Positions 30,362 through 49,390 of a DNA stretch of 51,166 nucleotides are shown here, piece by piece. The stretch's first letter is position 1, and every line of letters starts with the position of its first letter. The position numbers and the translations under genes were made by a program. The notes under the pieces are model-generated. The model made no database searches and was not told the origin of the DNA. It worked only from the letters and a program-made list of their open reading frames with translations. This DNA is from Candidatus Woesearchaeota archaeon. GTDB taxonomy: Archaea; Nanobdellota; Nanobdellia; Woesearchaeales; UBA119. Location of the stretch: the NCBI GenBank assembly GCA_030156615.1, contig JASGME010000006.1, positions 1 through 51,166 on the forward strand, written 5' to 3'.

Positions 30362-30443
30362 TGATAGATAATAAAAGAACTAGATATATAAAGTTTTTTA
30401 TTGTTTCTTTTGTTGGGGATTAAAAAAGAGTTAAATTTATAAA

Positions 30444-30483
30444 TGTCATATTCTTTATATCATTTGATATATGATATATGACA
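30444..30483. promoter_or_regulatory. 40-nt imperfect palindrome over promoter/start of HTH-NTase gene 1
   Basis: TGTCATATTCTTTATATCA-TT-TGATATATGATATATGACA, 15 of 19 arm positions complementary; directly after TATA-like ttaaatttataaa. Confidence 0.75.
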
Positions 30484-31064
30484 ATACAGAATTGAGGATT
30501 TTAGAAAAGATCTGGCTAAAAGAGGGCATCCACAAGAGGGAACTATCAAAACAGCTTAAGCTTGGGATGCCTTCAATAGACTACGCTCTTAAAAAAATAG
30601 AAAGAATGTTGAAAAATAAAAGATCCGGGAATCAAATAAGATATTTTCTAGATTATTCAAAAGAGGATTTGACACCTTTAATTTATATGGTTGAGTATTC
30701 CAGAATGAACAAACTTCCTGCAAAAGTAAAACTTGCCATATACGATTTTTTAACAGAAATGAAAGAGAAACCAATAATTGTGGCTATTTTTGGTTCTTAT
30801 GCTAGAGGAGATTATACAAAAAACTCTGATATTGATGTTCTGCTTGTTTTTCAAAAATTAGAGAATGAAAAACAAATAGAAAATTGGGCAAATAGGGTAA
30901 GTATGAGAACCAACATTACTATAAATCCAGTTTACCTTAATTATGACACTTTCAGAGAATCTTTCCATGATTCAAGGAAAAAATTTTTTAAAAATCTCAA
31001 AAAAGATAAAATAATTATCGTGGGCATAGAATGGTGGAGACAACTAAAAAATGAGGAAGCCTGA
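30471..31064 (+). CDS. HTH plus nucleotidyltransferase (MNT-type) protein 1
   Basis: N-terminal winged HTH; IVAIFGSYARGDYTKNSDIDVLLVF active-site motif. Confidence 0.9.
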   Translation: MIYDNTELRILEKIWLKEGIHKRELSKQLKLGMPSIDYALKKIERMLKNKRSGNQIRYFLDYSKEDLTPLIYMVEYSRMNKLPAKVKLAIYDFLTEMKEKPIIVAIFGSYARGDYTKNSDIDVLLVFQKLENEKQIENWANRVSMRTNITINPVYLNYDTFRESFHDSRKKFFKNLKKDKIIIVGIEWWRQLKNEEA

Positions 31065-31161
31065 CTGGAAAATCTGGTTAAAAGATAAAAAAGAATGCAA
31101 GCATTGGTTAGACTATTATATAAAAAAAGAAATTCTTAGAAAAAGTTCAGAAGGAAGGTAA
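31051..31161 (+). pseudogene. Truncated/frameshifted putative HEPN-type partner
   Basis: Overlapping ORF MRKPDWKIWLKDKKECKHWLDYYIKKEILRKSSEGR*; removing one A from the aaaaa run near 31140 continues as EILRKVQKEGKSKFITIDTSKKRKINKLSSKGTQI* to 31237. Confidence 0.4.
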
Positions 31162-31233
31162 ATCAAAATTCATAACGATTGACACTTCTAAAAAAAGAAA
31201 AATAAATAAACTATCTTCTAAAGGAACGCAGAT

Positions 31234-32400
31234 ATGATAAATTTGTTCATTTTTTTAAGCATGATTTTCTTCTTTACCTTGCTAGTCGGCTGGCTTCTTG
31301 AGAAAGCAAGGATTCCTTGGGTTTTTGCATCTTTAATAATCGGACTCGGACTTGGCTTTTGGAATCCTTTTGTTGAGATTACTGAAACAGAGGGATTTGG
31401 ATTGCTTGCCGATTTAGGGATGTACTTTTTGCTGTTTATGATTGGTTATGAGGTTAGTCTCAAGAACATAAGGAAGAAGAGTGCTTTCTTATTTAAACTA
31501 ACATTCTTTGCAATTGTTTTTGAAGCAGTTTTTACAGGCATTTTTATTCATTTTTCTATGGGAACAACATGGATTATCTCTTTTGCTGTTTCCTTGTCTT
31601 TTGCTACAATAGGAGAAGAGGTAATCTTGCCAATTTTAGATGAATTTAAGCTGTCGAAGAAGAGAATAGGTCAAACAATGATAGATGTTGGGATCATTGA
31701 TGACATCTTTGATACTATTGTTTTAAGCATAGCTGTGATTCTTATAGGTATTCATTTTAATCAAGAGGTTGATTTGATAGGTATTGTTATTTCTTTTATT
31801 GGAATCTTTGCACTCACATCATTCTTGAATGAGATAAATAAAAAAGAGGGAAGATTCCAGCTTCACGATATTGAAAGGACATTCTTTCTTGCTATAGCAA
31901 TATTATTTTGTTTTATTGGCATAGGAAAGATTGGAGGCATAGAAGAACTTGGAGCTCTCTTTGCAGGGATAAGTGTGCATGCATTTATTCCAAAGAACAG
32001 GAGAAAGAACATTGAAGGCCAGTTAAAGGCTATTTCATACGGCTTCTTTATTCCAGTTTTCTTTGTTTCTATTTGTCTTGAATTAGACTTAGCATATGTT
32101 TCTAGTTCATGGATACTGGTACTTCTTTTGACATTAATAGCATTGGCTTCAAAGAGCTTTGGAAGTTGGCTTTCTGCAAGGAAGGAGCTCGGAAACAAAA
32201 ACAGCATACTCTTAGGGATAGGACTTTCCGCTAAGTTTAGCATGACTATTGTAATAACAAAGATGCTTTACGATAGTGCTTTGATAAGCTTAGAACTTTT
32301 TTCTTTGATTGTTGTGTCTGGTCTGATCTTCACAATAGGAATTTCACTTGTATTTCCTATATTAATAAAGAGATGGCTTCCTTTGAAAAGCAAAGAATAA
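31234..32400 (+). CDS. Cation:proton antiporter (CPA2-like)
   Basis: 388 aa polytopic; LIIGLGLGFWNPF, LLFMIGYEVSLKNIRK, GALFAGISVHAFIPKNRR. Confidence 0.88.
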   Translation: MINLFIFLSMIFFFTLLVGWLLEKARIPWVFASLIIGLGLGFWNPFVEITETEGFGLLADLGMYFLLFMIGYEVSLKNIRKKSAFLFKLTFFAIVFEAVFTGIFIHFSMGTTWIISFAVSLSFATIGEEVILPILDEFKLSKKRIGQTMIDVGIIDDIFDTIVLSIAVILIGIHFNQEVDLIGIVISFIGIFALTSFLNEINKKEGRFQLHDIERTFFLAIAILFCFIGIGKIGGIEELGALFAGISVHAFIPKNRRKNIEGQLKAISYGFFIPVFFVSICLELDLAYVSSSWILVLLLTLIALASKSFGSWLSARKELGNKNSILLGIGLSAKFSMTIVITKMLYDSALISLELFSLIVVSGLIFTIGISLVFPILIKRWLPLKSKE

Positions 32401-32428
32401 TAAGCAATGAGCAAGCAATAAGAAGAAT

Positions 32429-32776
32429 ATGAAACAGGCAATTGTTGTCAGGAAGGATTTGAAGATGAGCAAGGGGAAGTGCGCTGCTCAGGTAGCTCAT
32501 GGCGCTGTTGAGGCTAGTTTGGTGACTCTAAAAAGAGATAAAAGGCTTCTTGAGAGATGGAAGGAGGAAGGAATGAAAAAGGTTGTGCTTGGTGTTGCTG
32601 ATTTAAAAGAACTTCTTGAGCTAAAGAATCTTGCTGAAAAGTTAGGCATTGTACATTATCTTGTCAGGGATGCTGGAAAAACAGAGGTTCCTGCTGGAAC
32701 TGAAACTGCATTGGCAATAGGCCCTGATGAAGACGAGAAGATTGATTTGATTACTGGGAAGCTTAAAGCGCTATAA
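32429..32776 (+). CDS. pth2: Peptidyl-tRNA hydrolase 2
   Basis: MKQAIVVRKDLKMSKGKCAAQVAHGAVEA, DAGKTEVPAGTETALAIGP. Confidence 0.97.
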   Translation: MKQAIVVRKDLKMSKGKCAAQVAHGAVEASLVTLKRDKRLLERWKEEGMKKVVLGVADLKELLELKNLAEKLGIVHYLVRDAGKTEVPAGTETALAIGPDEDEKIDLITGKLKAL

Positions 32777-32803
32777 CCAGAATCAAAATATTTATATATT
32801 GCT

Positions 32804-32839
32804 GTTTACTTTTATACTCATATGATTACAAAAGTAAAC
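32804..32839. promoter_or_regulatory. Inverted repeat over start codon of HTH-NTase gene 2
   Basis: GTTTACTTTT-16 nt-AAAAGTAAAC perfect 10-bp arms; 3 nt after TATA-like tttatatatt (32791..32800). Confidence 0.82.
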
Positions 32840-33409
32840 GACGTGGATTTGAGAATCTTAAGCCTCTTCACAAAAAGCTACAACAAGGAGTATTACATCA
32901 GAGAGGTAGAGAAGCTTTTGGGGATTAGCTCCCGGACGGCTCTTGTAACACTTGCTAAGCTTGAAAAAAAGGGAATTTTGGAATCAAAGATCAGGGGCAA
33001 GATCAAAACCTATTCAATAAAGAAGTCTGGCTTATCAAGGGAATATTTTGTTTTGACTGAGCAATATAAGAAAATCCAGTTCTTAGAAAAGAATCAGCTT
33101 ATCAAGGAAGTTCTTGAAAAAGCAGAAGATAATATGCATGGTATAGTCATTGTATTTGGGAGCTATGCCAAAGGAATCCAAAAAAAGGATTCTGATCTTG
33201 ATATATTCATCGTAGGCAAGTATGACGAAGATAGAATTAAGGAAGTTGGCAAAAAGTACGGGATTGATATAAATATCAAATGGTATCCTATGAAAATTTT
33301 TGAAAAGGAAATAAATACAGATATATTATTAAAAGAAGTCATTGAAAATCACATAATAATAAAAGGTGTGGAAGGATTTGTAGGGAGGGTTGCAAAATGG
33401 ATCAAATAG
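32822..33409 (+). CDS. HTH plus nucleotidyltransferase (MNT-type) protein 2
   Basis: Winged HTH; GIVIVFGSYAKGIQKKDSDLDIFIV. Confidence 0.9.
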   Translation: MITKVNDVDLRILSLFTKSYNKEYYIREVEKLLGISSRTALVTLAKLEKKGILESKIRGKIKTYSIKKSGLSREYFVLTEQYKKIQFLEKNQLIKEVLEKAEDNMHGIVIVFGSYAKGIQKKDSDLDIFIVGKYDEDRIKEVGKKYGIDINIKWYPMKIFEKEINTDILLKEVIENHIIIKGVEGFVGRVAKWIK

Positions 33410-33486
33410 TTTGCTGCGGGATTTTGGATTTTTTGCTAATTCAGAAACAGATATTTGAGAGAATAACTATTCGAGAAGGGGAATAA
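33397..33486 (+). pseudogene. Micro-ORF overlapping HTH-NTase gene 2 (possible HEPN remnant)
   Basis: MDQIVCCGILDFLLIQKQIFERITIREGE*, starts 13 nt before the end of the upstream gene. Confidence 0.3.
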
Positions 33487-33753
33487 CAAATAGGATAAAA
33501 CAAAAATCTAGATAGATTTATTAGCTCCCTGACATTTAATAACACAAAGATACCAAAAATAGAGTTCAGATGGTCTTTCATCTATCAGGAAGAAAACCAT
33601 TTGCCTAAAAAAGAAGATTTGAAGAAGAAATAGAGGGTTACTCCTATTATACAGAATATAAGAAAGTATGAGATATTGTTCTTAAGGAAAGGCGTGAAAA
33701 GATTATTCAAGATTTGAGAAAGTTTTTTAAACCAGATGATTTTCCTCTTGGAT

Positions 33754-33948
33754 ATGGGAAGGATAAAAACAAAGTACATAAAGAGAAAAACAAAAGAGAT
33801 TATTGATAAGTACGGAGACAAATTTACAACAGATTACGAAGAGAATAAGAGAATCATCACAGAAAACTACAAATTTCTCTCAAAGAAGATAAGAAATATA
33901 GTTGCTGGTTATGCAACAAGATTAACAAAAAAATCTGAAAACTTCTAA
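33754..33948 (+). CDS. rps17e: 30S ribosomal protein eS17
   Basis: MGRIKTKYIKRKTKEIIDKYGDKFTTDYEENKRIITENYKFLSKKIRNIVAGYATRL; start at internal MGR rather than 33736. Confidence 0.92.
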   Translation: MGRIKTKYIKRKTKEIIDKYGDKFTTDYEENKRIITENYKFLSKKIRNIVAGYATRLTKKSENF

Positions 33949-33989
33949 AAATCCAAAAAGAATATTAAGCCTTTGAACATTCAAGAATT

Positions 33990-35006
33990 ATGAAAGGCTT
34001 TAATGATCTTCCAGAAATAAGTGATGCCAATACATATATCTCTATTGCTTTTGAAAGAGCAAAGAAGAAGATAAAGAATGCTGCCAATAAAGATAAGGCT
34101 AAAGAGAAATGGTTCAAGGTTTCCGAACTGATTCGTGTTGAGACTGCTGGCAATGTTCTAAGCAGCAGGTTAGGCGAGATTCTCGATAGTTTTCCCAAGA
34201 TAGATGAGTTGTCCGAGTTTAATAAAGAGTTACTGGGATGCTTCTTCAGTATAAGGGATTACAAGAGGAGTTTGGCAAGAATAGCAAACGCCAAGGCAAG
34301 AATAGGAAAGATTCAGAAAGAGATTCTGAGGAAGCTAAAGAAGACAGAGAAGCCTTTTGAAAGTATGAAATTAAGGAAAGAGGCATTTGGCAGATTTGCT
34401 TCAATCATGAGAAGTATAGATAATGCATTTTATAATCTTGAACAATACAGAAGAAGCTTGAAAGATTTTCCTCTCGTGAAAGAAGAACTATTTAGTGTTT
34501 GCATAGCCGGCTTTCCGAATGTTGGTAAATCTACGCTTATGAAAAGGCTTTCTGGAGCAAACATAGAAATCAACAATTATTCTTTTACTACAAAAAAACT
34601 CTTGATAAATTTCATAAAGTATAGGGAGCAGTTAATTCAGCTTATTGATACTCCGGGGAATTTAGACAGAAAAGATAAGATGAATTTGATTGAGAAGCAG
34701 GCAGATATAGCTGTTAAAAAGCTAGCTAATTTTATTGTTTTTGTTTATGATGCAACAGATGTTAGAAATCAGGAGGGACTGCTCATAAAAACAATTAAGA
34801 TTGGGAAACCTTTATGCGTTTATATAAGCAAGACTGATTTAATTGATGATGTTAAGGCAGGGGCATTGAAGGAAAAGATAAAGAAAATAGTTGGAAAAGA
34901 GAGCTTAGTTTTGACTAATCCAAAAGATGTTGAGGATGCAATAATTTCAGAGTTTAACAAATGGCTTGGAAAAGAGATTAAGAAAAATAAAGAGAGAAAA
35001 AGTTAA
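33990..35006 (+). CDS. NOG1-like GTPase
   Basis: N-terminal helical NOG1-type domain, CIAGFPNVGKSTLMKRLSGANIEINNYSFTTK, IDTPGNL, ISKTDL. Confidence 0.92.
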   Translation: MKGFNDLPEISDANTYISIAFERAKKKIKNAANKDKAKEKWFKVSELIRVETAGNVLSSRLGEILDSFPKIDELSEFNKELLGCFFSIRDYKRSLARIANAKARIGKIQKEILRKLKKTEKPFESMKLRKEAFGRFASIMRSIDNAFYNLEQYRRSLKDFPLVKEELFSVCIAGFPNVGKSTLMKRLSGANIEINNYSFTTKKLLINFIKYREQLIQLIDTPGNLDRKDKMNLIEKQADIAVKKLANFIVFVYDATDVRNQEGLLIKTIKIGKPLCVYISKTDLIDDVKAGALKEKIKKIVGKESLVLTNPKDVEDAIISEFNKWLGKEIKKNKERKS

Positions 35007-36091
35007 TTTGTTTTTTTCTTTTTGGTTGATTTACTTCCTTCTTCTTTTATGTATAAAACATGGGTTGGGAAAGGAATTGTTATATTGTTCTTATTTAGAG
35101 CTTCATAGATTAGTTTCCTTGCTTCTAGCCCTGCTTCATATCTAAGGCCTCTGTTTGGAACCCAAAATTTGGCATTAAAATTCAACGAGAAATCGCCAAA
35201 TGAATCAAATGTTACGCTTGGAGCAGGATCATCTAGGCAATTCTTAACCTTTTTTATTGAATCTAAGACAACCTTTTCAACTTTATCAACATCAGAGCCG
35301 TAGGCAACTGAAAAAGGAATGACTGCTCTAACAGGAGGGTTCGGTCCTTCAACATTGTGAATCTTTGAATTGGCAAGGATTGAATTCGGGAAGATGATAG
35401 ATTCATTATCCCATGTGCGAATCTTTGAACTCCTTAAAGACATATCATAAACAATGCCGGAAGTGCCGTCATCAAGCTGAATCATATCTCCAACCTTTAG
35501 TGTCTTGTCAAGGATTAATGAGATTCCTCCAAACAGATCTTTTAGACTATCCTGAACAGCAAGGCTGATTGCTAACCCAACAATGCCCAATGCTCCTAAG
35601 AAAGGACCTATCTTAACTCCCCAGATTGAGAGGATTATTAAAAAACCGATTATTGCTATGGCTGCCTTTGCCAAGTTTGTGAATAAAGGAAGCAATGGAT
35701 TCTTTACAGAGATGTCTTTTTTCTTAGAATAGAGTCTGTTAAATAATTCTATAAGCATTCTGGAGATATGAACGCTAAAGAATAGGATAAATACTGTCAG
35801 CACAGAGTAAAAAATCTTATCAACATATTCTGGTATTACAGAGAAGTCAAGGGTATAACCAATCGCAATCCTTGCTGCAATAAGGATAAATAACCACGAA
35901 ATCCAAGGCAATGCCTTCTCAATTAATACATCATCGGTCTTTATTTTGGTTTTGCTCGCAAGTTTCAGAAGTCTTTTCTTGAGGAATCTTTGAACAATAA
36001 GGCCAATTATAAGAACTCCTATAAAAATTATTATGCCTATTACAATATCAAAGGCAATACTGTTTTGTAAAAGTTCATTCATTAAAATCAC
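35003..36091 (-). CDS. MscS-type mechanosensitive channel
   Basis: ALGIVGLAISLAVQDSLKDLFGGISLILDKTLKVGDMIQLDDGTSGIV. Confidence 0.93.
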   Translation of the reverse strand: MILMNELLQNSIAFDIVIGIIIFIGVLIIGLIVQRFLKKRLLKLASKTKIKTDDVLIEKALPWISWLFILIAARIAIGYTLDFSVIPEYVDKIFYSVLTVFILFFSVHISRMLIELFNRLYSKKKDISVKNPLLPLFTNLAKAAIAIIGFLIILSIWGVKIGPFLGALGIVGLAISLAVQDSLKDLFGGISLILDKTLKVGDMIQLDDGTSGIVYDMSLRSSKIRTWDNESIIFPNSILANSKIHNVEGPNPPVRAVIPFSVAYGSDVDKVEKVVLDSIKKVKNCLDDPAPSVTFDSFGDFSLNFNAKFWVPNRGLRYEAGLEARKLIYEALNKNNITIPFPTHVLYIKEEGSKSTKKKKTN

Positions 36092-36155
36092 CTAAGATTA
36101 TATGCTTAAGCTAATTTTTTTGAGAATTTATAAAACTTTCTTAAATGTCAGAAGA

Positions 36156-36677
36156 TTATGCTTTTTCTTCAACAATAGAATATGAGAGAGGGAGTTTTGT
36201 ATATGCCAGCCTTAATGCTCTTCTCGCCTTTTCTATTCCATCTTCATTCACATAGACGCTCATTAATCTCTCGCCTTCACGAAGCTGCACTGCAATTCCG
36301 ATTACCTTTCCAAAGGAAAGCTTCATTCCTGTGCTTAATCTATCTGCACCTGCACCAGATGCAAGCGGATTTTCCCTTAAAACATGGTGCGGATATTTTA
36401 GGATTTTGAAATGATAAGAAGATCTTCCAAGTGTTTTCTCAAGGAGACGATTTGCACTCACCCTTGCTGATTCTATGCTCTCCTGTCTTATTTGAAGAGG
36501 TTGTTTTGACACTAAAGATACTCTGTATTTGAAAGAACCATTTAGATTTCCCATATCAAATCTTGTAATCTTTAGATGAGGTCTTGACTTTACATAAGAC
36601 TTGCTACGAAACTTTGAAACTCTTGTATAAGGTCTTTCTATGGTCCTATAAGCAACGAATTTTCTTAATCTTGCCAT
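36156..36677 (-). CDS. rpl10e: 50S ribosomal protein uL16 (archaeal L10e)
   Basis: IERPYTRVSKFRSKSYVKSRPHLKITRFDMGN, KYPHHVLRENPLASGAGADRLSTGM. Confidence 0.95.
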   Translation of the reverse strand: MARLRKFVAYRTIERPYTRVSKFRSKSYVKSRPHLKITRFDMGNLNGSFKYRVSLVSKQPLQIRQESIESARVSANRLLEKTLGRSSYHFKILKYPHHVLRENPLASGAGADRLSTGMKLSFGKVIGIAVQLREGERLMSVYVNEDGIEKARRALRLAYTKLPLSYSIVEEKA

Positions 36678-36706
36678 TCTGAATCAAGTGGATTAATAGA
36701 GGATTT

Positions 36707-37447
36707 TTAAAGCTTTTGTTTTGAATCTTTTTCCTGAGTGCTGATTTTATTTATGTTTTTCTCAAGCCAAGCCCTATGGCCTTCACCTGTTACAACCAAA
36801 ATCTTTTTATCAGGAAACTTTGAATGAAATTCTTCCAGTCTCTTTTTCATATAGCGGTTTCTTTCTTCTATAAGGACATTGTATAAAGAAGGGTATCTCT
36901 TTTTCATCTCCTGAATTATCTTTTCTACCTGTTTCTCATCGGGAACCTTTGAGATGTCTATCTGGACTCTTTCTTTTTTTGAGAAGGGAGCGAAGATTAT
37001 TTCTTTGAAGATTGTAAAGCCTTCTTTAATACCAAATGCCTTTGACAGATGCCTCATAGTGATTCTTATGTCCTGATCAATAAGTAATATAGGAAGAGAG
37101 TATTCTCTTGCCAATAGCACTGCCTGTTTCATCTCTGATCCTGGTTCTACTCCAACGATATTGCCAAGCCGTTTTTGGATTCTATGACCAATCTTGACAA
37201 AAAGAGCTCCTATAAGTCCTATTTGAGATATTAAAGAGAATAAAGAGGGCTGGCTCTTCTGCTTTGAAAACAAGCTGGATAATCTGCCCCTGTCCAACTC
37301 TATTGCTATCACATTAGGAGAGAACTCATCAAAGGCCTTTTTGATCTCATCAATGCTTTCCTTTGCAATATGAGATGTGCCTATGAAAAGAAAAGGACTA
37401 TTCCCATCTTTTGATGTTTTATTAAGCATTTTATCCATAAAAAACAC
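36707..37447 (-). CDS. TraB/PrgY family protein
   Basis: LFIGTSHIAKESIDEIKKAF, VIAIELDRGRLSSL, LLIDQDIRITMR, VTGEGHRAW. Confidence 0.88.
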   Translation of the reverse strand: MFFMDKMLNKTSKDGNSPFLFIGTSHIAKESIDEIKKAFDEFSPNVIAIELDRGRLSSLFSKQKSQPSLFSLISQIGLIGALFVKIGHRIQKRLGNIVGVEPGSEMKQAVLLAREYSLPILLIDQDIRITMRHLSKAFGIKEGFTIFKEIIFAPFSKKERVQIDISKVPDEKQVEKIIQEMKKRYPSLYNVLIEERNRYMKKRLEEFHSKFPDKKILVVTGEGHRAWLEKNINKISTQEKDSKQKL

Positions 37448-37511
37448 AAAATATAAAAGTTTAAATATTAATCGTTAATTAAAGAGATATATTAAGCGTG
37501 GAGGGATAATT

Positions 37512-37781
37512 ATGCTAAAGATGAAGAAGATTAGTACAACGTATGATATGAAGGTATTTACCGATGAAGGGGATTATTTTGGAGATGTTGAAGAATCAAT
37601 AATAAACGGAAACAAGATATATGGCTGGAGGATAAAGGCTACTAAGAGTTCTGTATTGAATAGGGTAATAAGCAATGCAAAGGGGGTCATAGTGCCTCAT
37701 CAGCTTGTTAAGGCAATAGGCGATATTATGCTTATATCAAAATCTGCCGTGCCATCTTATGAAGGCAAGGAAGAACAATAG
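37512..37781 (+). CDS. PRC-barrel-like small protein (CdpB-like)
   Basis: KISTTYDMKVFTDEGDYFGDVEESIINGNKIYGWRIKA...GVIVPHQLVKAIGDIMLIS. Confidence 0.75.
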   Translation: MLKMKKISTTYDMKVFTDEGDYFGDVEESIINGNKIYGWRIKATKSSVLNRVISNAKGVIVPHQLVKAIGDIMLISKSAVPSYEGKEEQ

Positions 37782-37841
37782 GGCTTTTTCTTTTTAAATT
37801 TCTTTATATTTAACTTGTTTATTAGACATCTGATAGAGAAT

Positions 37842-37912
37842 GCACCAGTAGTTTAAGGGCATGACTCCAGCTTCCCAAGCTGGCAATCCGGGTTCAAATC
37901 CCGGCTGGTGCA
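37842..37912 (+). tRNA. tRNA-Gly (CCC)
   Basis: GCACCAG...CCAGC-TTCCCAA-GCTGG...CCGGGTTCAAATCCCGG-CTGGTGCA. Confidence 0.93.
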
Positions 37913-37989
37913 TATCATGAATTTAGTTTAATGGCGGTTGAAGACTAAACAAGGTTTATATAGTTCTGTTATTCTTATCAATAAAAGAG

Positions 37990-38760
37990 GTGATTTTTAT
38001 GAGTGAAGTCATTAAGAAGAGGAAAGAAAATAAAACATGGATAGGCGCTATTGTTTTAGTTTTGCTATTTACTGCAGCCCTTTCTTTTATAACTTTTAAT
38101 CTTGAGGTTGAACTGCAGGAAGGAGAAAATGTTCTTGAGGTTTCAAAGAGGATTGAAAGAGAAGAGATGCCAGATAAGGCAACGATAAGATTTTCTATCG
38201 TAAGCTTGGATGGAGATATAAATAAGGCATTGCAGAAGAATAGCGAGATAAACAACAGGATAATGATGCATTATGAAGTGAGAGATGATTTAACGATTTC
38301 AACTACAGGATACAGTATTCAGGATAGAAAAGAATGGAATAAGAGCTCTGAAAAATATGATGTTCTTGGCTATGAAGTTTATAATACATTAAGCATTGAA
38401 ACAAAGAACCTTGATGATTTAGGAAATATTATCAATGAAGTCATAGGAATGGAAGCAAATCGAGTTGAAAGCGTAGCCTTTGAGATTTCAAACGAGAAGA
38501 AGGAAGAGCTATACAAAGAGATGTTAGAAGAAGGGGTTGAAAAGGCAAAGGAAGAAGCTGAGATGATTGCTGATATGATGGAAAAGGAGATTAAGGAGAT
38601 TGCAAATATATACAAGAATGAGGCTGGGACTTATCCAATTTATTTAAGGAACGAGGCCTTGCTTAAAGATCAAGCGATTGATGCCGAGGCTCCAATAATA
38701 TCTCCGGAGAAACAGACATTGGCACTTGATGTGATTGTAAGCTTTGAATTGAAAGACTAA
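37990..38760 (+). CDS. SIMPL (DUF541) domain protein
   Basis: N-terminal TM; EVSKRIEREEMPDKATIRFSIVS; IISPEKQTLALDVIVSFEL. Confidence 0.8.
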   Translation: MIFMSEVIKKRKENKTWIGAIVLVLLFTAALSFITFNLEVELQEGENVLEVSKRIEREEMPDKATIRFSIVSLDGDINKALQKNSEINNRIMMHYEVRDDLTISTTGYSIQDRKEWNKSSEKYDVLGYEVYNTLSIETKNLDDLGNIINEVIGMEANRVESVAFEISNEKKEELYKEMLEEGVEKAKEEAEMIADMMEKEIKEIANIYKNEAGTYPIYLRNEALLKDQAIDAEAPIISPEKQTLALDVIVSFELKD

Positions 38761-38778
38761 GCAAATTTTTTCTTTTTT

Positions 38779-40605
38779 CTATTTCTTTTTGTATTTTTCT
38801 TCATCAAGAAAAGAGATTAATTGCTCCAATTTCTTTTTTGGTTTTGAATCATACTTGCCCTTTAATTCGTTTAGATTGTATGATGCTCTATTCTTAAAAT
38901 AATTCCCTAATTCAAGATATGAATCGTCTGATTTGTTTTCATACCAAACTGAGGAACGAGCTGCCTGAAGCAAATCAACATAAGACGCAAACAAAGGATA
39001 ATTTTCCTTTATCTCCCTATTCTTAATTTTCTTACTCCTTTTTACTGAATCGTACGCAAAATCAACTCGGTCATCGATAGTTTCAGATATATCTGGTTGT
39101 TCTAGCAAATAGGCAATATCAAAGAGGTAGTTTGCCCATGCTAACCTTTCAAAATCAATTATCTTAGTTCCAAAATACTTTGAAAAGATAAAGTTTCCTG
39201 AGTGAGGATCGCCGTGAGATAAACTCCTTTCCATATTATCTAATTCTTTAAAGATGATTGAAAAAGCATCTATAATATCGTCTTTCATTGAGGAAAAATC
39301 AGATGATTTTTCTAATTTTCTCGTCAATTCATCTTCATAGTTGTATTCCGGAAGAGAATCAAAACCAAGAGCTGAGCTATTTTCAGTAATGAGATTCATC
39401 AAGCCAAAAAGAACTGATAAAGCCTCTGAAGAAGCATAATTTGACTTTGAAGGATTCTTTAGATAATCTCTAAGCAATTCTCCGTCAAAGAACCTCTCTG
39501 CAAGGTAATATTCATCTCCAATCTTTCCAAAATAAAAAGGCCTTGGCATTATTGATTTATCTTTTAGTAGTTCAGAGTAATATATCTTATTCAAGATATT
39601 AAACTCATTTTCTATGCTCGAAGGCTCTTTACTTTTCTTACCAACAAATAAGAGATTAGGAAGATAAGGGGCTTTCCCTATAAAGACATCGTTTGTTGAA
39701 TCAGGCTTAGAATAGACTGTGAAAAGACCTTGCTTCAGGAAGTTTTCAAACCATTCTTTATAGATTTCTTTTGCCTCTTCTTCTGCCTTCAATTTTAGAT
39801 GAGCATTCTTTTTAGAGTACAGTTCATTCTCAAGGATCATCCCTTGAATAAAATCCAAAGTCTCTTTTGATACCTCTTTTTCAAACAAAGGCAGTAATTC
39901 TCTGAATGCATTTATAGGCCGATTCTTTTCAGAATCAGCAGTTCCTCTTGCTATCAAAAAAGTAGCTCTCCTCATTTGATATTGATGCATCTTTCCAAAT
40001 TGCTTTGAAATAGCATTTCTTATTTTTGGAAATGAAACATAAAAAGAGCTTAAGGTGTTGTAGTCTATGAACCTTGCAACCGCTTCTCTTTCAATTAGAG
40101 AATTAGAGAAACTCACCATCATCACATAAAGTTCATTTAAATAATGTTCGACATCTAAATCATCTGCATAAATCAATGACTTTGAAAAATGAGAAATAGG
40201 CTCAAAAGGAGTCTCAGAAATCACCTCATCTGCTAATTTTAAAGAGCGTTTTTTAGACCTATAATAACTACTGCTTGCTTTAAATTCTCTATTAAGTGAT
40301 TTAAAGTAATTTTTTATCCCCGAAATAGTTTCGCTAAAAGAAGGATTATATTTTATTGATTTTTCAAGAATTTTCTTTGCTTCGTTGTAAGAATTAGGAG
40401 TGCTTCTTACTAGATGAGCAATTGGCTTTATTAAAACAGTAGGCACAAGAACATAAAAAAGACTTTCCATGGTTCCTAAAGAATCCATCATGTCTAAAAG
40501 TTTTGAATAGTAATAACCTAAGGCCAGAAAGATAGGCAAATCAGGAGCTACAGAAATTGATGCAGCAAAAGTATTTATCAGAAATTTCCTTAACTTTTCT
40601 TTCAT
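38779..40605 (-). CDS. Membrane-associated APH/protein-kinase-like phosphotransferase
   Basis: 608 aa; N-terminal hydrophobic segments; SLSHGDPHSGNFIFSKYFGTKIIDFERLAW catalytic motifs. Confidence 0.72.
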   Translation of the reverse strand: MKEKLRKFLINTFAASISVAPDLPIFLALGYYYSKLLDMMDSLGTMESLFYVLVPTVLIKPIAHLVRSTPNSYNEAKKILEKSIKYNPSFSETISGIKNYFKSLNREFKASSSYYRSKKRSLKLADEVISETPFEPISHFSKSLIYADDLDVEHYLNELYVMMVSFSNSLIEREAVARFIDYNTLSSFYVSFPKIRNAISKQFGKMHQYQMRRATFLIARGTADSEKNRPINAFRELLPLFEKEVSKETLDFIQGMILENELYSKKNAHLKLKAEEEAKEIYKEWFENFLKQGLFTVYSKPDSTNDVFIGKAPYLPNLLFVGKKSKEPSSIENEFNILNKIYYSELLKDKSIMPRPFYFGKIGDEYYLAERFFDGELLRDYLKNPSKSNYASSEALSVLFGLMNLITENSSALGFDSLPEYNYEDELTRKLEKSSDFSSMKDDIIDAFSIIFKELDNMERSLSHGDPHSGNFIFSKYFGTKIIDFERLAWANYLFDIAYLLEQPDISETIDDRVDFAYDSVKRSKKIKNREIKENYPLFASYVDLLQAARSSVWYENKSDDSYLELGNYFKNRASYNLNELKGKYDSKPKKKLEQLISFLDEEKYKKK

Positions 40606-40640
40606 TAAGTTATAATTTTTTAATCAATTTATATTTAAAA

Positions 40641-41213
40641 TTATCTCTTTATAAGCTTTGGTTCATCCTCTAAGAGGTTTACTATTGTAGAAGGGGTGCC
40701 TCTTAAATAACCATCATCAAAAGCATAATGAACACTAATCATGCATTTGTCTGAGGCTTCTTTTGGATGTTGAAGCAGTTGGTTCTCGTTTAATGTAGCT
40801 GCAGTACTAACAAAAGGAAGGCCAATCTCCTTAACGAAATCGGCAATCCAATGCATCGGTATCCTTACACCTATTGTGCCTAAGCCATTGTTTACATAAC
40901 GCGAAACAGCATTTTCATTCTTCAACTTAAGTATCAAGGTATATGGCCCGGGAAGTTTCTTTAACCATTCTTCATCTTTTTTTGTAATTGTGCAATTCTC
41001 TTTAATCCATTGCATAGAAGGAGCTAATATTGAGAAAGGACGCTGAAAATCGTTTTTTATCTCTCTTATTTTTTTCACGGCATCGTCATCCTTTGCATTG
41101 CAACCAAATCCATATATGGTATCTGTCGGATGAAGCACGATCTTACCTTTCTCAATCTGTTTAAATAGATGAACTTTGTTAATAAACACTTCTTCCTTTG
41201 TCAGGATTTCCAT
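40641..41213 (-). CDS. Divergent YrdC-domain protein
   Basis: KIVLHPTDTIYGFGCNA, QRPFSILAPS, GTIGVRIP; the SANxSG motif is replaced by STAATLNENQ. Confidence 0.85.
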   Translation of the reverse strand: MEILTKEEVFINKVHLFKQIEKGKIVLHPTDTIYGFGCNAKDDDAVKKIREIKNDFQRPFSILAPSMQWIKENCTITKKDEEWLKKLPGPYTLILKLKNENAVSRYVNNGLGTIGVRIPMHWIADFVKEIGLPFVSTAATLNENQLLQHPKEASDKCMISVHYAFDDGYLRGTPSTIVNLLEDEPKLIKR

Positions 41214-41260
41214 GATGGTTTAGGGAATTTAAGAATTTTTAAAAACCTTTCGTTATAATG

Positions 41261-41374
41261 CTAAATGTTCTTTATACTCATTCGATAGGCTTCCTGACTT
41301 AGAGCAAAGTTGTTTATTGCATTTATGAGCTCTTTGTATTCTTCCCAGTTCAAATAATTTTTAGTTCTGAACAT
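41261..41374 (-). CDS. Small hypothetical protein (37 aa)
   Basis: Hand translation MFRTKNYLNWEEYKELINAINNFALSQEAYRMSIKNI*; SD-like GGTGAT upstream. Confidence 0.45.
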   Translation of the reverse strand: MFRTKNYLNWEEYKELINAINNFALSQEAYRMSIKNI

Positions 41375-41402
41375 TTTTATCACCAAAAAAAGCAAAAAAA
41401 GA

Positions 41403-41552
41403 TTATGCGGACAGATGATAGCCCTTCAAAAAATTAAGTTCAGCGAAGTCAATCTCATCATCATCGTAAAGATAATCAAGGCCTTCTAAATCATATACAT
41501 CGTATTCAGCATTTTCTGGTTCATCAACAATTTTTATTTCCTCAAATTTCAT
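41403..41552 (-). CDS. Small acidic hypothetical protein (49 aa)
   Basis: Hand translation MKFEEIKIVDEPENAEYDVYDLEGLDYLYDDDEIDFAELNFLKGYHLSA*; strong SD GAGGTGG upstream. Confidence 0.6.
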   Translation of the reverse strand: MKFEEIKIVDEPENAEYDVYDLEGLDYLYDDDEIDFAELNFLKGYHLSA

Positions 41553-41718
41553 ATTCCACCTCTTAAAAAATATTATAAAGCTCTTTTATTGCTATCATTT
41601 ATTGCTATCATTCCGCCAAGATTAAACCATGTTTCATCACCTTTCTTCTTTAATTGACACCTCCGTTGCATTTTGCACTGCAACGATGCATTCTTATTCA
41701 AACAAAGTTGTTTCTGAC

Positions 41719-41850
41719 TCAGGGAAAGATCCATCTATCAGAAAACTGATAGTCGAAGCTCTCCTGATTTATTGTCTCCTGTGTCATCTTCCTAATCTGC
41801 GAATAAAACAAATTTTTTATTGTCTCTTGGCTAAGATCATTCATTTTCAT
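41719..41850 (-). CDS. Small hypothetical protein (43 aa)
   Basis: MKMNDLSQETIKNLFYSQIRKMTQETINQESFDYQFSDRWIFP*; SD-like GGTGATG upstream; shorter than the track ORF start. Confidence 0.45.
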   Translation of the reverse strand: MKMNDLSQETIKNLFYSQIRKMTQETINQESFDYQFSDRWIFP

Positions 41851-41944
41851 CACCGTAAAGAATTCTAGGATTGGAAGTTTAAATATCCTGTTCGCGCAGA
41901 TGTCCAATGACCAATGGAAGAATTATTAGTATAATGTTTTTTCT

Positions 41945-43801
41945 TTATTTTTTGTTCAATTCTTCTCTTAATATTTGATTTATTTCTTTTCCATCTGCTC
42001 CTTTTAGGGCTGCCATTGCCTTACCCATTAGAAAACCGAAGCTCTTATCTTTATTCTGCTTAATTATCTCCTTTATCTTCCTTCTTATCTCTTCTTCAGA
42101 GATTTTATTCATAGAAAGTTCTTCTAGATTTACATTTTTTCCTTTGCCAATATCAAAATAGGCATCTTCAAGTTGTTTCTTTGTAATAGTGCCTGAATCC
42201 AGAAGAGAAATAAGCTTCATTATATTTTCTTCGCTTATGTTTTTAGAATCAAATAGATTTTCCTTCTTTTTGAATTCCTTTGGCTTAGAGAATAATAATG
42301 TATAGATATAACTTGCTTTTTGTTTTGAATTATTCATTAGTTTAAAAAAGAAATCTGATTTTCCTGATTTTGCAACGATTGTTGCTTCTTCTCTTGGAAG
42401 GCCTAAAGCCGTGATTTTCTCAATTACATCTTTTATTGAAGGGGCTTTTTTAACGCTTAACTCTTCTAGAAATATTGAAGGCACATCTGTTTCAGGATAC
42501 ATTCTGGCCGGGCCGGGCATTGGTCTTAGAAAGGTTGTTGTTCCGTCTTGTTTTGCAGCCCTAACCTCGCTCGGAATCTTTTTCATTAGCATTTCCAGTC
42601 GCTCTAAAGCCTTTTTTATGAATATCCTGCATTCTTCTTCTTTTCCTGCAACAAGGATAAAAGAGTCTTCTTTTTTTATGTTCAGCATTTTCTCCAAAGA
42701 AGATAGCTCGGCTTTTGTTATGCCATAGTTTGGCAGTTCATCACGATGAAACAAGCCATTCAAAGAAGAATATGTCTTTGCATAATCAGAGATTTCTGTG
42801 CCAATTCTTCTTCCCTGAAGTATTTCAGTTCCTAATATGCCTGAAAATCCTTTTAATGGAACTGCGAATGACTTTCCTTGCTCGAGTTCTTTTTTCAATA
42901 TATTGCTTTTTGTTTCCTTGAATATTTGGCTAACATCAACTGGATTAGAGAAATTTGAATCTATTTTTCCTGATTTTTCTCTTTCTTTTAATTCATCTAT
43001 GACTTTCAAAAGGGAGAGTTGTCTAATTGCTTCGTTATATGCTAATTTGTCAAGTTCTTTCAGGTTTTGAGCTCCTTTTATCTCTATCCTTGCTCCTCCT
43101 TTTATTGAGAGATTAACATCCTGCCTTATTGTTCCTAATCCTCTTTTAACTTTCACACTTCTTAGAATTAATCCTATCTCTTTTGCACATTCTTTCAATT
43201 CTTCTGGTGATGCAAGCACAGGGGCTGTCGTAATCTCAACAAGAGGAATGCCAAGCCTAGATAAATGATATATATCCTTAGAAGAACTTCGTTTAATCAA
43301 CTTTGCAGAATCCTCTTCAAGACAGATTGTTTCTATAGGAACTTTTTTTGATTTTAGCTTCACAAAGCCATCAGTGGCAATAAGAGCTGTCCTTTGAAAG
43401 CCTGCTGTGTTTGAGCCATCTATTACTATCTTTCTCATGAATTCTATTGAATCCACAATTTTTGCATTGAAAAGATGTGAGACCTGAATAGAAATCTCTA
43501 ATGGCTCTTTTGAGATTTCATGCGGTGGCTCTTCGTCAAGCTCAACTAAGCATGAACTATTATTGCTTCCTCTATACACGAAGGATTTTGATTTTTCAAG
43601 TTCATGCAACGCAGCGGGGTCAATCTCGCCCATCTCGCTCTTAGATATGTTAAGTCTTCTTTCAATCTCAAAATCATATTTATCTTCATTATCGCCTTTG
43701 CAAGAGCAGAACAACTTTTGAGTGTCTAACTGCTGGTGTATCTCAAGACCTGCCTTAAATCCTATCTTGCTGAAATCATTAATCTGCATCAATGTAATCA
43801 T
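41945..43801 (-). CDS. gatE: Glu-tRNA(Gln) amidotransferase subunit E
   Basis: GLEIHQQLDTQKLFCSC, EEPPHEISKEPLE, RQDVNLSIKGGARIEIKGAQNL, TFLRPMPGPARMYPETDVP. Confidence 0.96.
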   Translation of the reverse strand: MITLMQINDFSKIGFKAGLEIHQQLDTQKLFCSCKGDNEDKYDFEIERRLNISKSEMGEIDPAALHELEKSKSFVYRGSNNSSCLVELDEEPPHEISKEPLEISIQVSHLFNAKIVDSIEFMRKIVIDGSNTAGFQRTALIATDGFVKLKSKKVPIETICLEEDSAKLIKRSSSKDIYHLSRLGIPLVEITTAPVLASPEELKECAKEIGLILRSVKVKRGLGTIRQDVNLSIKGGARIEIKGAQNLKELDKLAYNEAIRQLSLLKVIDELKEREKSGKIDSNFSNPVDVSQIFKETKSNILKKELEQGKSFAVPLKGFSGILGTEILQGRRIGTEISDYAKTYSSLNGLFHRDELPNYGITKAELSSLEKMLNIKKEDSFILVAGKEEECRIFIKKALERLEMLMKKIPSEVRAAKQDGTTTFLRPMPGPARMYPETDVPSIFLEELSVKKAPSIKDVIEKITALGLPREEATIVAKSGKSDFFFKLMNNSKQKASYIYTLLFSKPKEFKKKENLFDSKNISEENIMKLISLLDSGTITKKQLEDAYFDIGKGKNVNLEELSMNKISEEEIRRKIKEIIKQNKDKSFGFLMGKAMAALKGADGKEINQILREELNKK

Positions 43802-45068
43802 CCTCGTAAGGAGATTTCATTGAGAGCTCTCCTCTTAGATTTTTATTGTATAGCTCATAGATTTCTTCTTTCTTGAAATTAGACATAAGAAAAGCAAGTT
43901 TCATAAAGGCAGTTTCAGGAAGCATGTTTGATTCATGGCCAAGGACACCAAGTTCTTTTAGTTTCCTCCCTGTTGAATATACATTCAGGCTTATCCTGCC
44001 GAACAAAGTCTGGGGAGTTATTGCAATAATTACCCCTTTTGATATTGCTTCTTTTATTAACTTGAGAATGAATTCGTTTTCATCGTTTAATCCTATATGG
44101 CCGAGGCCTGTGCCTATGATTATTGCACCATCCATTTTCAATATTCCTCCTAATTCCTCTTTGCACATTGAAGGATGGACATAAAACATGCCTATCTTCA
44201 GGTTTGGATTCATAGTATAGAACTTAGGGGCTTTATTTTGATTTTCTTCTTTTGACAGCCATTCAATACTGTAATCCTTTAGAGAAATCCTTGCTAATGC
44301 CTCTGTATTTATTGGTTTAAATGCATCTCTTCGTGAGCTGTGCATCTTCCTGGCATTTGTTCCTCGAAGGATGAGGCAGCTATTATCTGAAGAGCTTTCA
44401 TGAATACATATAAAAACGCCTTTTGATTCTGATTTTAATATGAAATGGACGGCTGCCATCAGATTAGACTTAGAATCTGAGGAAGGTCTATCGGAGGAAC
44501 GCTGAGAGCCAACAAGGATTATTGGTAATGGAGGATTTTCTATAAGGAATGAAAGGGCTGCTGCTGTATAATGTAACATGTCTGTTCCATGCGTAATGAT
44601 AATGCCTTTTGGTTTTTTCTCTGCATTTAATGCATCTTTTATGGCTGACACGAGCTTGTTTAAATCAGAAAAACGGAGATTCTCTGAAAGCATTCTTGAG
44701 ACAAGCTTGCTTTCAATATAAACTAGGGTGCTCAGCTCTGGAAACAAAGAGATGATTTCTTCAGGCTCAAATAAAGGACTTACTCCTCCTAGCTCATAAT
44801 CAACCTTTGAAGCTATAGTGCCGCCCATATGAAGGATTGTTAACTTTGGTAATTTCTTATTTAGAAGAGGTTTCTTATTTTCATTTTTTACTACTGGTTT
44901 TTCCTTAATTGGCTTTGCATCTCGAACATTCTTTTTAAAAATTCCGACATTATAACCATTCTTTAGTTTTATGATAATTCTTTCTTCTTTTATTGAGATT
45001 ACCCTGCCTTCGTATTCTCTCCCGTCTTTAAGAGATAATTGAACCAGTTGCCCTGTTTTATAGTTCAT
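43779..45068 (-). CDS. gatD: Glu-tRNA(Gln) amidotransferase subunit D (asparaginase-like)
   Basis: LTILHMGGTIASKVDYELGGVSP, GIIITHGTDMLHYTAAALSF, ALARISLKDY; paired with gatE. Confidence 0.96.
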   Translation of the reverse strand: MNYKTGQLVQLSLKDGREYEGRVISIKEERIIIKLKNGYNVGIFKKNVRDAKPIKEKPVVKNENKKPLLNKKLPKLTILHMGGTIASKVDYELGGVSPLFEPEEIISLFPELSTLVYIESKLVSRMLSENLRFSDLNKLVSAIKDALNAEKKPKGIIITHGTDMLHYTAAALSFLIENPPLPIILVGSQRSSDRPSSDSKSNLMAAVHFILKSESKGVFICIHESSSDNSCLILRGTNARKMHSSRRDAFKPINTEALARISLKDYSIEWLSKEENQNKAPKFYTMNPNLKIGMFYVHPSMCKEELGGILKMDGAIIIGTGLGHIGLNDENEFILKLIKEAISKGVIIAITPQTLFGRISLNVYSTGRKLKELGVLGHESNMLPETAFMKLAFLMSNFKKEEIYELYNKNLRGELSMKSPYEDDYIDAD

Positions 45069-45113
45069 TCTTAAAAGTATTGTATGTCTGTTTTATAAAA
45101 TTATCTATACATC

Positions 45114-45413
45114 ATGATAATTAGGAAAGGAGATTTCAAACCTGTTCTCATTGATTTAATAAAATACGCTCCAAAAGAGGCTTCTGAAGTTGTAACAGAT
45201 TTTGCAAGGGCAACACTCCTGCTTGGCTTGGACAAGACTAAGGATATATTTGCAGACTTATGGAAGTTTATAGCAACAATATCATTTAAAGATTCATTAG
45301 AATTCTATTATGGAAAGAATATTGAATATTATTTATCTATTGAAGAGGAAAAGAAAGAAGCACAATTAGCTATCACAAATCTTGTCAGGGCTAGAGAAAC
45401 TCAGGCAATATGA
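45114..45413 (+). CDS. Hypothetical protein (99 aa)
   Basis: Continuous ORF, no recognised motif. Confidence 0.55.
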   Translation: MIIRKGDFKPVLIDLIKYAPKEASEVVTDFARATLLLGLDKTKDIFADLWKFIATISFKDSLEFYYGKNIEYYLSIEEEKKEAQLAITNLVRARETQAI

Positions 45414-45436
45414 TCTAAAAGCACAACCTTTAAATA

Positions 45437-45474
45437 TATGGGCATAACCCATAGTAATATGGTTAAAAACCATA
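45437..45474. promoter_or_regulatory. Two tandem palindromes over promoter/start of HTH-NTase gene 3
   Basis: TATGGG-CATAA-CCCATA (45437..45453) and TATGGTT-AAA-AACCATA (45458..45474), centres 21 bp apart; TATA-like tttaaatata at 45429..45438. Confidence 0.82.
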
Positions 45475-46082
45475 AAAATGAAAAAATAGAAATTCTGAGA
45501 CTATTGATTAAGAATGCTGATAAGGATTATAGCATAAGGCAACTTGCTATTCTGAGAAAGATAAATTATAAATCGGCATATGAGGCAGTAATGAAGCTTT
45601 ATGAAGAAGGAGTCATTAATATTAAGAAAGAAGGCAACAACTCTAGGATCAGTTTCAATTTCAGCTTCAATGAGAGTGTCTTTATAGCAGAGAAAGAAAT
45701 AAGAGAAGCTTTTCTTAAAAATAAAGACTTTAGCGTGCTTTACAAGAGAATTGATGAGATTGATAATCCTTTCTTTATTTGCCTTGTTTTTGGCTCTTAT
45801 GCTAAAGGCATTACCCATAAAGGTTCTGATCTTGATATCTGCACAATTACAAATGAGCGAGAGGTCATTAAAGAGATTAATAATATCTTTGACATTACAC
45901 CTTTTGAGATTCATTCGCTTGAATTCAGTTCTAAAGAATTCAATAAAATGTTAAAATCAAAAGATTACAATATTGGGAAGGAAATTGTTAAAAACAAAGT
46001 CATTCTAAAGAACATAGAAGCATTTTATGAGTTGATAAAGATAGATCGAAGGATATGGAATCATGGAAAAATGAATCTTTGA
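45459..46082 (+). CDS. HTH plus nucleotidyltransferase (MNT-type) protein 3
   Basis: Winged HTH; CLVFGSYAKGITHKGSDLDICTI; start likely MVKNHKNEK since the track start at 45438 overlaps the TATA-like box. Confidence 0.88.
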   Translation: MVKNHKNEKIEILRLLIKNADKDYSIRQLAILRKINYKSAYEAVMKLYEEGVINIKKEGNNSRISFNFSFNESVFIAEKEIREAFLKNKDFSVLYKRIDEIDNPFFICLVFGSYAKGITHKGSDLDICTITNEREVIKEINNIFDITPFEIHSLEFSSKEFNKMLKSKDYNIGKEIVKNKVILKNIEAFYELIKIDRRIWNHGKMNL

Positions 46083-46126
46083 GTATTGAAGAAATAATAA
46101 AAAAATTAAAAGCATCTGAAAATTGA
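46055..46126 (+). pseudogene. Micro-ORF overlapping HTH-NTase gene 3
   Basis: MESWKNESLSIEEIIKKLKASEN*, overlaps the upstream gene by 28 nt. Confidence 0.3.
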
Positions 46127-48731: not shown

Positions 48732-49001
48732 ATGGCTGTTGAGATGATAAAAATGTCTTCAAAAGGACAGATAGTAATCCCTAAGGACATCAGGACTGAA
48801 ATATGTGCTTCAGAAGGGACTATGTTCGCTGTAGTTAGCGGAAGAGACAGCATAATTTTAAAAAAAGTAGCGATGCCTTCAAAAGAGGATTTAATCCGCG
48901 AACTTAAAGAAATAGCGAAAGAAGGCAGAAAAAGATTAGAAGCAAAAGGTATTAAAGAAGCAGACATACCAGATATTGTAAAGAAGTCAAGAAAAAGATG
49001 A
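48732..49001 (+). CDS. AbrB/MazE-type antitoxin
   Basis: EMIKMSSKGQIVIPKDIRTEICASEGTMFAV swapped-hairpin domain; SD AAGGAGG. Confidence 0.9.
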   Translation: MAVEMIKMSSKGQIVIPKDIRTEICASEGTMFAVVSGRDSIILKKVAMPSKEDLIRELKEIAKEGRKRLEAKGIKEADIPDIVKKSRKR

Positions 49002-49390
49002 TAAGCAAAGTTGTATTTGACACGAATGTGTTGATATCTGCTACTTTATGGGATAATAGTGTAGCACAGAAATTTTTATTTAGATGTATAATGGAGAATA
49101 TTCAAATATTTTCTTCTAAAAAAATAATTGAAGAATATGAAAAAGTCTTAGCAAGAGATTTTGATTATAAGGAAGAAGAAATAGGAGAAATAATTGGGAG
49201 AATTCTTCAAGTTGTTAAGATAGTAACTCCAAAGATAAAAGTTGATGCTGTCAAAGAAGATCCAGATGATAATAAAATAATTGAATGTGCTCTTGAATCA
49301 AATGCAGAATATATTATTTCTTATGACAAGCATCTTCTAAAGCTGAAAGAATACAAAAGAATAAAGATAGTCCGACCAGAAGAGCTTTAA
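48998..49390 (+). CDS. PIN-domain toxin (COG1569-like)
   Basis: KVVFDTNVLISATLWDNSVAQKFLF, EDPDDNKIIECALESNAEYIISYDKHLL; ATGA overlap with antitoxin. Confidence 0.92.
   Translation: MISKVVFDTNVLISATLWDNSVAQKFLFRCIMENIQIFSSKKIIEEYEKVLARDFDYKEEEIGEIIGRILQVVKIVTPKIKVDAVKEDPDDNKIIECALESNAEYIISYDKHLLKLKEYKRIKIVRPEEL

Follow-up and report, generated by a model that had tools for sequence, protein, structure and literature searches.

HEPN-MNT modules are described as among the most abundant two-gene modules of archaea, and their MNT antitoxins as devoid of a DNA-binding domain, with the suggestion of a trans-encoded one (PMC2701414, PMC7641770). In the type VII pair HepT/MntA, the nucleotidyltransferase MntA blocks the RNase activity of HepT by attaching three AMPs to its Tyr104 (PMC7641770). 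In Shewanella oneidensis, the MNT antitoxin of the SO_3165/SO_3166 pair is reported to bind its own promoter, where two palindromes are found (PMC4621449). PDC-M05, in turn, is a PADLOC candidate defence system made of a nucleotidyltransferase (M05A) and a HEPN protein (M05B) (PMC12988326). PDC-M05 as a named candidate system and HEPN-MNT as a kind of toxin-antitoxin are, then, already known.

The window analysed here is one entire contig (C1) of 51,166 bases, belonging to a 0.86-Mb genome in 30 contigs with a completeness of ~96%. It contains three genes (Table 1) that a preliminary description, made from the DNA letters, had read as winged HTH (wHTH) domains fused to MNT-type nucleotidyltransferases with an intact motif, and Pfam, PADLOC profiles and structure modelling all agree with it. 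The three proteins pass the Pfam cut-off for NTP_transf_2, cover the 201-aa PADLOC model PDC-M05A almost end to end (E from 4e-16 to 4e-13) and carry GS-x10-DxD (3/3). The HTH half of the three proteins stays below threshold in Pfam; a family profile compared with structures matched MarR/ArsR/IclR-type folds for this half, and AlphaFold2 modelling of gene 2 (pTM 0.87) gave a canonical wHTH (H7-18, H26-33, H37-49 and wing E53-58/E61-66) followed by a nucleotidyltransferase fold. Foldseek searches with this model matched the two halves separately (HI0073, MntA, archaeal wHTH proteins, RbkR) and returned no solved chain combining wHTH and nucleotidyltransferase in one architecture. The three genes are members of the PDC-M05A family, i.e., the nucleotidyltransferase half of the archaeal candidate system PDC-M05. 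They had been called a paralogous set, which holds in the sense of diverged members of one family but not of a recent local duplication, because their mutual identity is 27–30% and the nearest relatives of each are found in other genomes. Elsewhere in the window, at 48732–49390, an AbrB-like gene precedes a PIN-domain-like one, by eye a likely second toxin-antitoxin module.

Table 1. Features of the three wHTH-nucleotidyltransferase loci of the window; operators and TATA-like boxes are predicted.
Feature	Position	Strand	Description
Gene 1, TATA-like box	30436..30443	+	TTTATAAA
Gene 1, operator	30444..30483	+	Two 19-bp boxes, 2-bp spacer; score 24
Gene 1, wHTH-nucleotidyltransferase	30471..31064	+	197 aa; GS-x10-DxD intact; PDC-M05A E 5.5e-15; NTP_transf_2 above cut-off
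Micro-ORF 1	31051-31161	+	Overlaps gene 1 3' end; HEPN N-terminus, 34 aa; remainder deleted
Gene 2, TATA-like box	32791..32798	+	TTTATATA
Gene 2, operator	32803..32840	+	Two 18-bp boxes, 2-bp spacer; score 23
Gene 2, wHTH-nucleotidyltransferase	32822..33409	+	195 aa; PDC-M05A E 3.6e-16; AlphaFold2 pLDDT 94.3
Micro-ORF 2	33397-33486	+	Overlaps gene 2 3' end; HEPN start MDQI, then unrelated sequence
Gene 3, TATA-like box	45429..45436	+	TTTAAATA; kept in L026
Gene 3, operator	45437..45474	+	TATGGGCATAACCCATA, 4 bp, TATGGTTAAAAACCATA; period 21; score 25; kept in L026
Gene 3, wHTH-nucleotidyltransferase	45459..46082	+	207 aa; second in-frame ATG at 45438; PDC-M05A E 4e-13
Micro-ORF 3	46055-46126	+	Overlaps gene 3 3' end; 23 aa; weak likeness to HEPN N-termini

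The likeness of these loci to PDC-M05 consists of the near-full-length M05A match of the three proteins, the enrichment in archaea and the presence, in relatives, of a HEPN gene directly downstream; the differences are that the adjacent HEPN (M05B) is absent or truncated in the window, and that the operator architecture reported below does not appear in the accessible part of the PDC-M05 description (PMC12988326). With HepT/MntA they share the GS-x10-DxD antitoxin motif and, in relatives, an antitoxin gene that comes first and adjoins or overlaps the HEPN gene, with a Tyr conserved near the HEPN Arg. By contrast, MntA has no DNA-binding domain (PMC7641770), whereas a wHTH is fused to the enzyme in the window family, and the adjacent HEPN with RX4HXY has no counterpart here, as the window has no HEPN and that of the relatives shows R-x4-Y. 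A palindrome pair at the promoter of the MNT antitoxin itself recalls SO_3165/SO_3166; the antitoxin of that pair has no recognisable DNA-binding domain (PMC4621449), and its palindromes are dissimilar and lie near −10/−35, instead of forming tandem boxes over the start codon. The best Foldseek E-value was obtained for RbkR (PDB 5trd, with CTP and cognate DNA), an archaeal fusion of wHTH and riboflavin kinase, but the enzyme is unrelated and the whole-chain TM-score is low (0.30), so that the relation is one of design and not of family. As in autoregulated antitoxins of type II style, a DNA-binding domain is present (the wHTH of model and profiles), together with what is predicted to be an operator at the own promoter.

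The palindromes reported in the preliminary description are indeed at the sites claimed, each right after a TATA-like box, unlike one another in sequence and covering the ATG together with the predicted start of transcription. When they are scored as plain inverted repeats, that of gene 2 alone stands out from dinucleotide shuffles (0/500 shuffles, compared with 121/500 for gene 1 and 94/500 for gene 3); simple hairpin scoring was too weak for genes 1 and 3, and a two-box model was used instead. Scored as two-box operators, all three stand out (3/400, 6/400 and 0/400 shuffles for genes 1, 2 and 3, respectively). The half-sites of gene 1, TGTCATA/TGATATA/TGATATA/TGTCATA, span the predicted transcription start and the ATG, and in gene 2 (TGTTTAC/TGAGTAT/TGATTAC/CGTTTAC) box 2 begins at the T of the ATG.

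To see the layout in the family we collected 150 non-redundant PDC-M05A-type genes, nearly all from the order of the window organism, and 371 control genes. The family layout has two palindromic boxes of 17–19 bp with a period of 20–21 bp and four similar half-sites, placed downstream of a TATA-like box and extending into the first codons; the most frequent arrangement has the beginning of box 1 at −19 and opens box 2 with the T of the ATG. In an unbiased scan of 72 geometries, the four period-20 layouts rank at the top. An operator score of at least 22 (of 28) is reached by 60% of the family genes vs 1.9% of the controls, and one of at least 23 by 50% vs 0.5%, while a TATA-like motif at −42..−27 occurs in 59% vs 17%. 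Since geometry and scoring had been picked after the pattern had been seen, the hold-out set was important: among 46 further family genes, mostly from other orders and unused in defining the layout, 57% score at least 22 (controls 5.4%) and 43% at least 23 (controls 1.3%), the control background being higher in this set. About 40% of the family genes lie below the operator threshold. The start-codon layout holds and generalises, being shared by about one half of the genes in this very large archaeal family. Within the literature covered, from which most subscription papers fell outside, we found no description of a tandem start-codon operator or of a self-contained antitoxin-repressor-operator unit. 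A different palindrome layout was observed at L189 (C25:40660), where a 430-aa gene is preceded by imperfect GTTTCC inverted repeats that lie upstream of its TATA box. Some loci (L163, L100, L114; G031:C93) harbour two HTH-nucleotidyltransferase genes a short distance apart, in some cases without an intervening HEPN.

Relatives were found in MAGs labelled Woesearchaeota, Aenigmatarchaeota and Nanohaloarchaea, which puts the genome of the window within the DPANN archaea. The nine relatives of gene 2 (L252–L260, 71–80% identity) sit in MAGs labelled as different DPANN phyla, which indicates horizontal transfer or mislabelled bins. All of those with upstream sequence keep TGTTTAC/CGTTTAC...GTAAAC (one has GTAAGC). 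Gene 3 and its orthologue L026, from a congener and at a different locus, have the same operator, and gene 1 and its closest relative L109 both show the half-sites TGTCATA and TGATATA, with a different order in box 1. Sequence conservation among the orthologues covers the operator and does not continue upstream of the TATA box. The comparison of upstream regions found the palindromic operators kept in orthologues and across the family. Within the operator of gene 2, at codons 2–6, comparisons between identical residues have identical codons in 95% of cases; the figure for the remainder of the gene is 56%, and 0 of 180 five-codon windows at other positions reach the identity of the operator codons. 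These codons are conserved at synonymous positions, and the DNA itself is under constraint.

The half-site letters vary from gene to gene (TGTTA, TGTTT, TGTCC, TGATA, TGAGT, TATGG...). In a set of 46 proteins whose HTH identity stays below 60%, which controls only in part for shared ancestry, they covary most strongly with alignment columns 26–33, where the predicted recognition helix begins (ranks 1–4 of 164 windows); these columns are still near the top at <45% identity (n = 31), and the signal fades at <35% (n = 17). Half-site similarity also correlates with that of the whole protein, which is not decisive alone because the HTH performs only slightly better than the nucleotidyltransferase. 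In the 0.86-Mb genome, the box pattern of gene 1 is confined to its own promoter, where it accounts for both boxes, and the exact (second) box of gene 3 is likewise confined to the promoter of gene 3; box-like sites of genes 2 and 3 elsewhere are few, none of them in a comparable promoter layout, and a regulon search of this genome with the three operators gave no promoter targets. The operators look private, without a regulon. Autoregulation through one private operator per gene, as proposed in the preliminary description, has good support at the sequence level from conservation in orthologues and family, covariation with the helix and the restriction of the gene 1 and gene 3 boxes to their own promoters.

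In the family, a HEPN-like gene lies directly downstream of 115 of the 150 genes (~77%), and is missing in 27 of the 142 having at least 350 nt of downstream sequence; these 27 include all three window genes or their stand-ins (L026 represents gene 3). The micro-ORFs noted earlier at the 3' ends of the window genes do exist. Over 34 aa, micro-ORF 1 matches the HEPN partner of L109 at 62% identity (E 2e-15). At the loci orthologous to gene 2 (L252, L254–L260) a HEPN starting with MDQ(I/M)KWC... or MDKIMWC... is found at the same overlap where the window reads ..CKMDQI. Micro-ORF 3 gave no convincing homologue (best E 0.16), no HEPN was found in the 1.4 kb downstream of L026, and a HEPN profile had no convincing match in the DNA downstream of the window genes. 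The claim that the HEPN partner was reduced or lost therefore stands for genes 1 and 2, because their relatives have an intact HEPN at the same position, while for gene 3 a loss is only presumed. Close relatives carry intact HEPN genes, and the pattern in the assembly as given points to deletion or replacement and not to a sequencing artefact of a single base.

In the HEPN partners of the family a Tyr is invariant (109/109), five residues after a conserved Arg (105/110), forming a motif R-x4-Y; the partners also carry a separate conserved His, and the motif is unlike the RX4HXY of HepT. Three partners were compared with the M05B models, with one match, which was weak. A search for an orphan HEPN partner elsewhere in the genome yielded only the intact gene of C25, the broken one of C3 and, on C7, a fragment at the contig end. 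Besides its intact HEPN, the C25 module shows a palindrome whose centre is the ATG. On C3 (L262, C3:27258–27605), a frame change together with an internal stop disrupts the HEPN following the HTH-nucleotidyltransferase; of the operator-bearing paralogues seen, C25 is therefore the only one with an intact module. The GS..DxD motif is intact in 149 of the 150 family genes, i.e., in 115/115 HEPN-paired and 34/35 unpaired ones. In G000, a paralogue on C15 (C15:28110–28553, L015) keeps the HTH and has lost the catalytic GS...DxD (VIYGEVKENKATLLF). Selection after HEPN loss was estimated for gene 3 alone: gene 3 and L026, both toxin-less, are 88% identical, with dN 0.05, dS 0.38–0.63 and dN/dS about 0.08–0.15, and by this comparison gene 3 is still under purifying selection.

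Other explanations can be considered for the palindromes. That they are chance products of A+T-rich promoters is extremely improbable: genes 1 and 3 are unremarkable as plain hairpins, but shuffles scored in the same way, control genes, the hold-out set, orthologue conservation and synonymous constraint led us to reject it. They might act instead as RNA hairpins at the start codon, controlling translation and not transcription, as the overlap of box 2 with the ATG and the first codons would allow; this is quite improbable, given that most of box 1 precedes the point at which, judging by the TATA box, the transcript should begin, that the 20–21 bp period corresponds to two turns of DNA, and that the half-site letters covary with the DNA-recognition helix.

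As for the proteins, an intact enzyme and DNA-binding domain retained without toxin could mean that the solo copies are now trans-acting regulators of other genes, which we regard as improbable in view of the genome searches with the three boxes. The window genes could also be decaying toxin-antitoxin remnants, in which repressor and operator persist because too little time has elapsed. The truncated or lost HEPN at three window loci, the broken one on C3 and the C15 paralogue without catalytic motif fit such a decay; nevertheless, gene 3 lacks a toxin in each of two species, where it occupies different loci, and it shows a low dN/dS and a conserved operator, and almost all unpaired genes keep the catalytic motif, so that we consider this explanation rather unlikely. 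The best reading is that of autoregulated type VII-like antitoxins with a built-in DNA-binding domain, the three of the window having lost the toxin: each protein is, with good probability, a one-chain antitoxin and repressor acting on a private tandem operator, the HEPN being truncated or lost in the three window copies.

The wHTH, presumably as a dimer on each of the two boxes, would bind the private tandem operator from the TATA box to codon 6 or 7, and binding would block initiation of its own near-leaderless transcript. In complete modules, the MntA-type nucleotidyltransferase domain would neutralise the HEPN RNase encoded downstream by adenylylation, with the invariant R-x4-Y tyrosine as a plausible target; the three window loci have a truncated HEPN gene or none, with repressor, operator and catalytic motif retained. 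The simplest reading is that one polypeptide may repress its operon through the tandem operator and neutralise the toxin by adenylylation; that the protein binds DNA, dimerises, represses and is enzymatically active, with HEPN as its substrate, is deduced from the features above, as would be any link between DNA binding and adenylylation. The persistence of toxin-less copies could perhaps be explained by anti-addiction protection from HEPN toxins of related kind, by a second substrate or by slow decay, the last being unlikely for gene 3. A wider and tentative proposal, possible but not favoured, is that of a large family of enzyme-repressors, often many per genome, whose private tandem operators double, in their downstream half, as the sequence encoding the N-terminus of the protein; DNA binding would be switched by nucleotidyl transfer or by binding of HEPN, and toxin-less copies would persist as self-regulating antidotes to HEPN toxins of related systems.

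Antitoxin enzyme, repressor and operator would form one unit, with many naturally distinct repressor-operator pairs per lineage; the operators of uncultured DPANN archaea would become predictable and the wHTH recognition code readable from sequence. The operator, by constraining the first codons of the protein, is a clear overlap of regulatory and coding information, and the family offers a direct test of why antitoxins outlive toxins.
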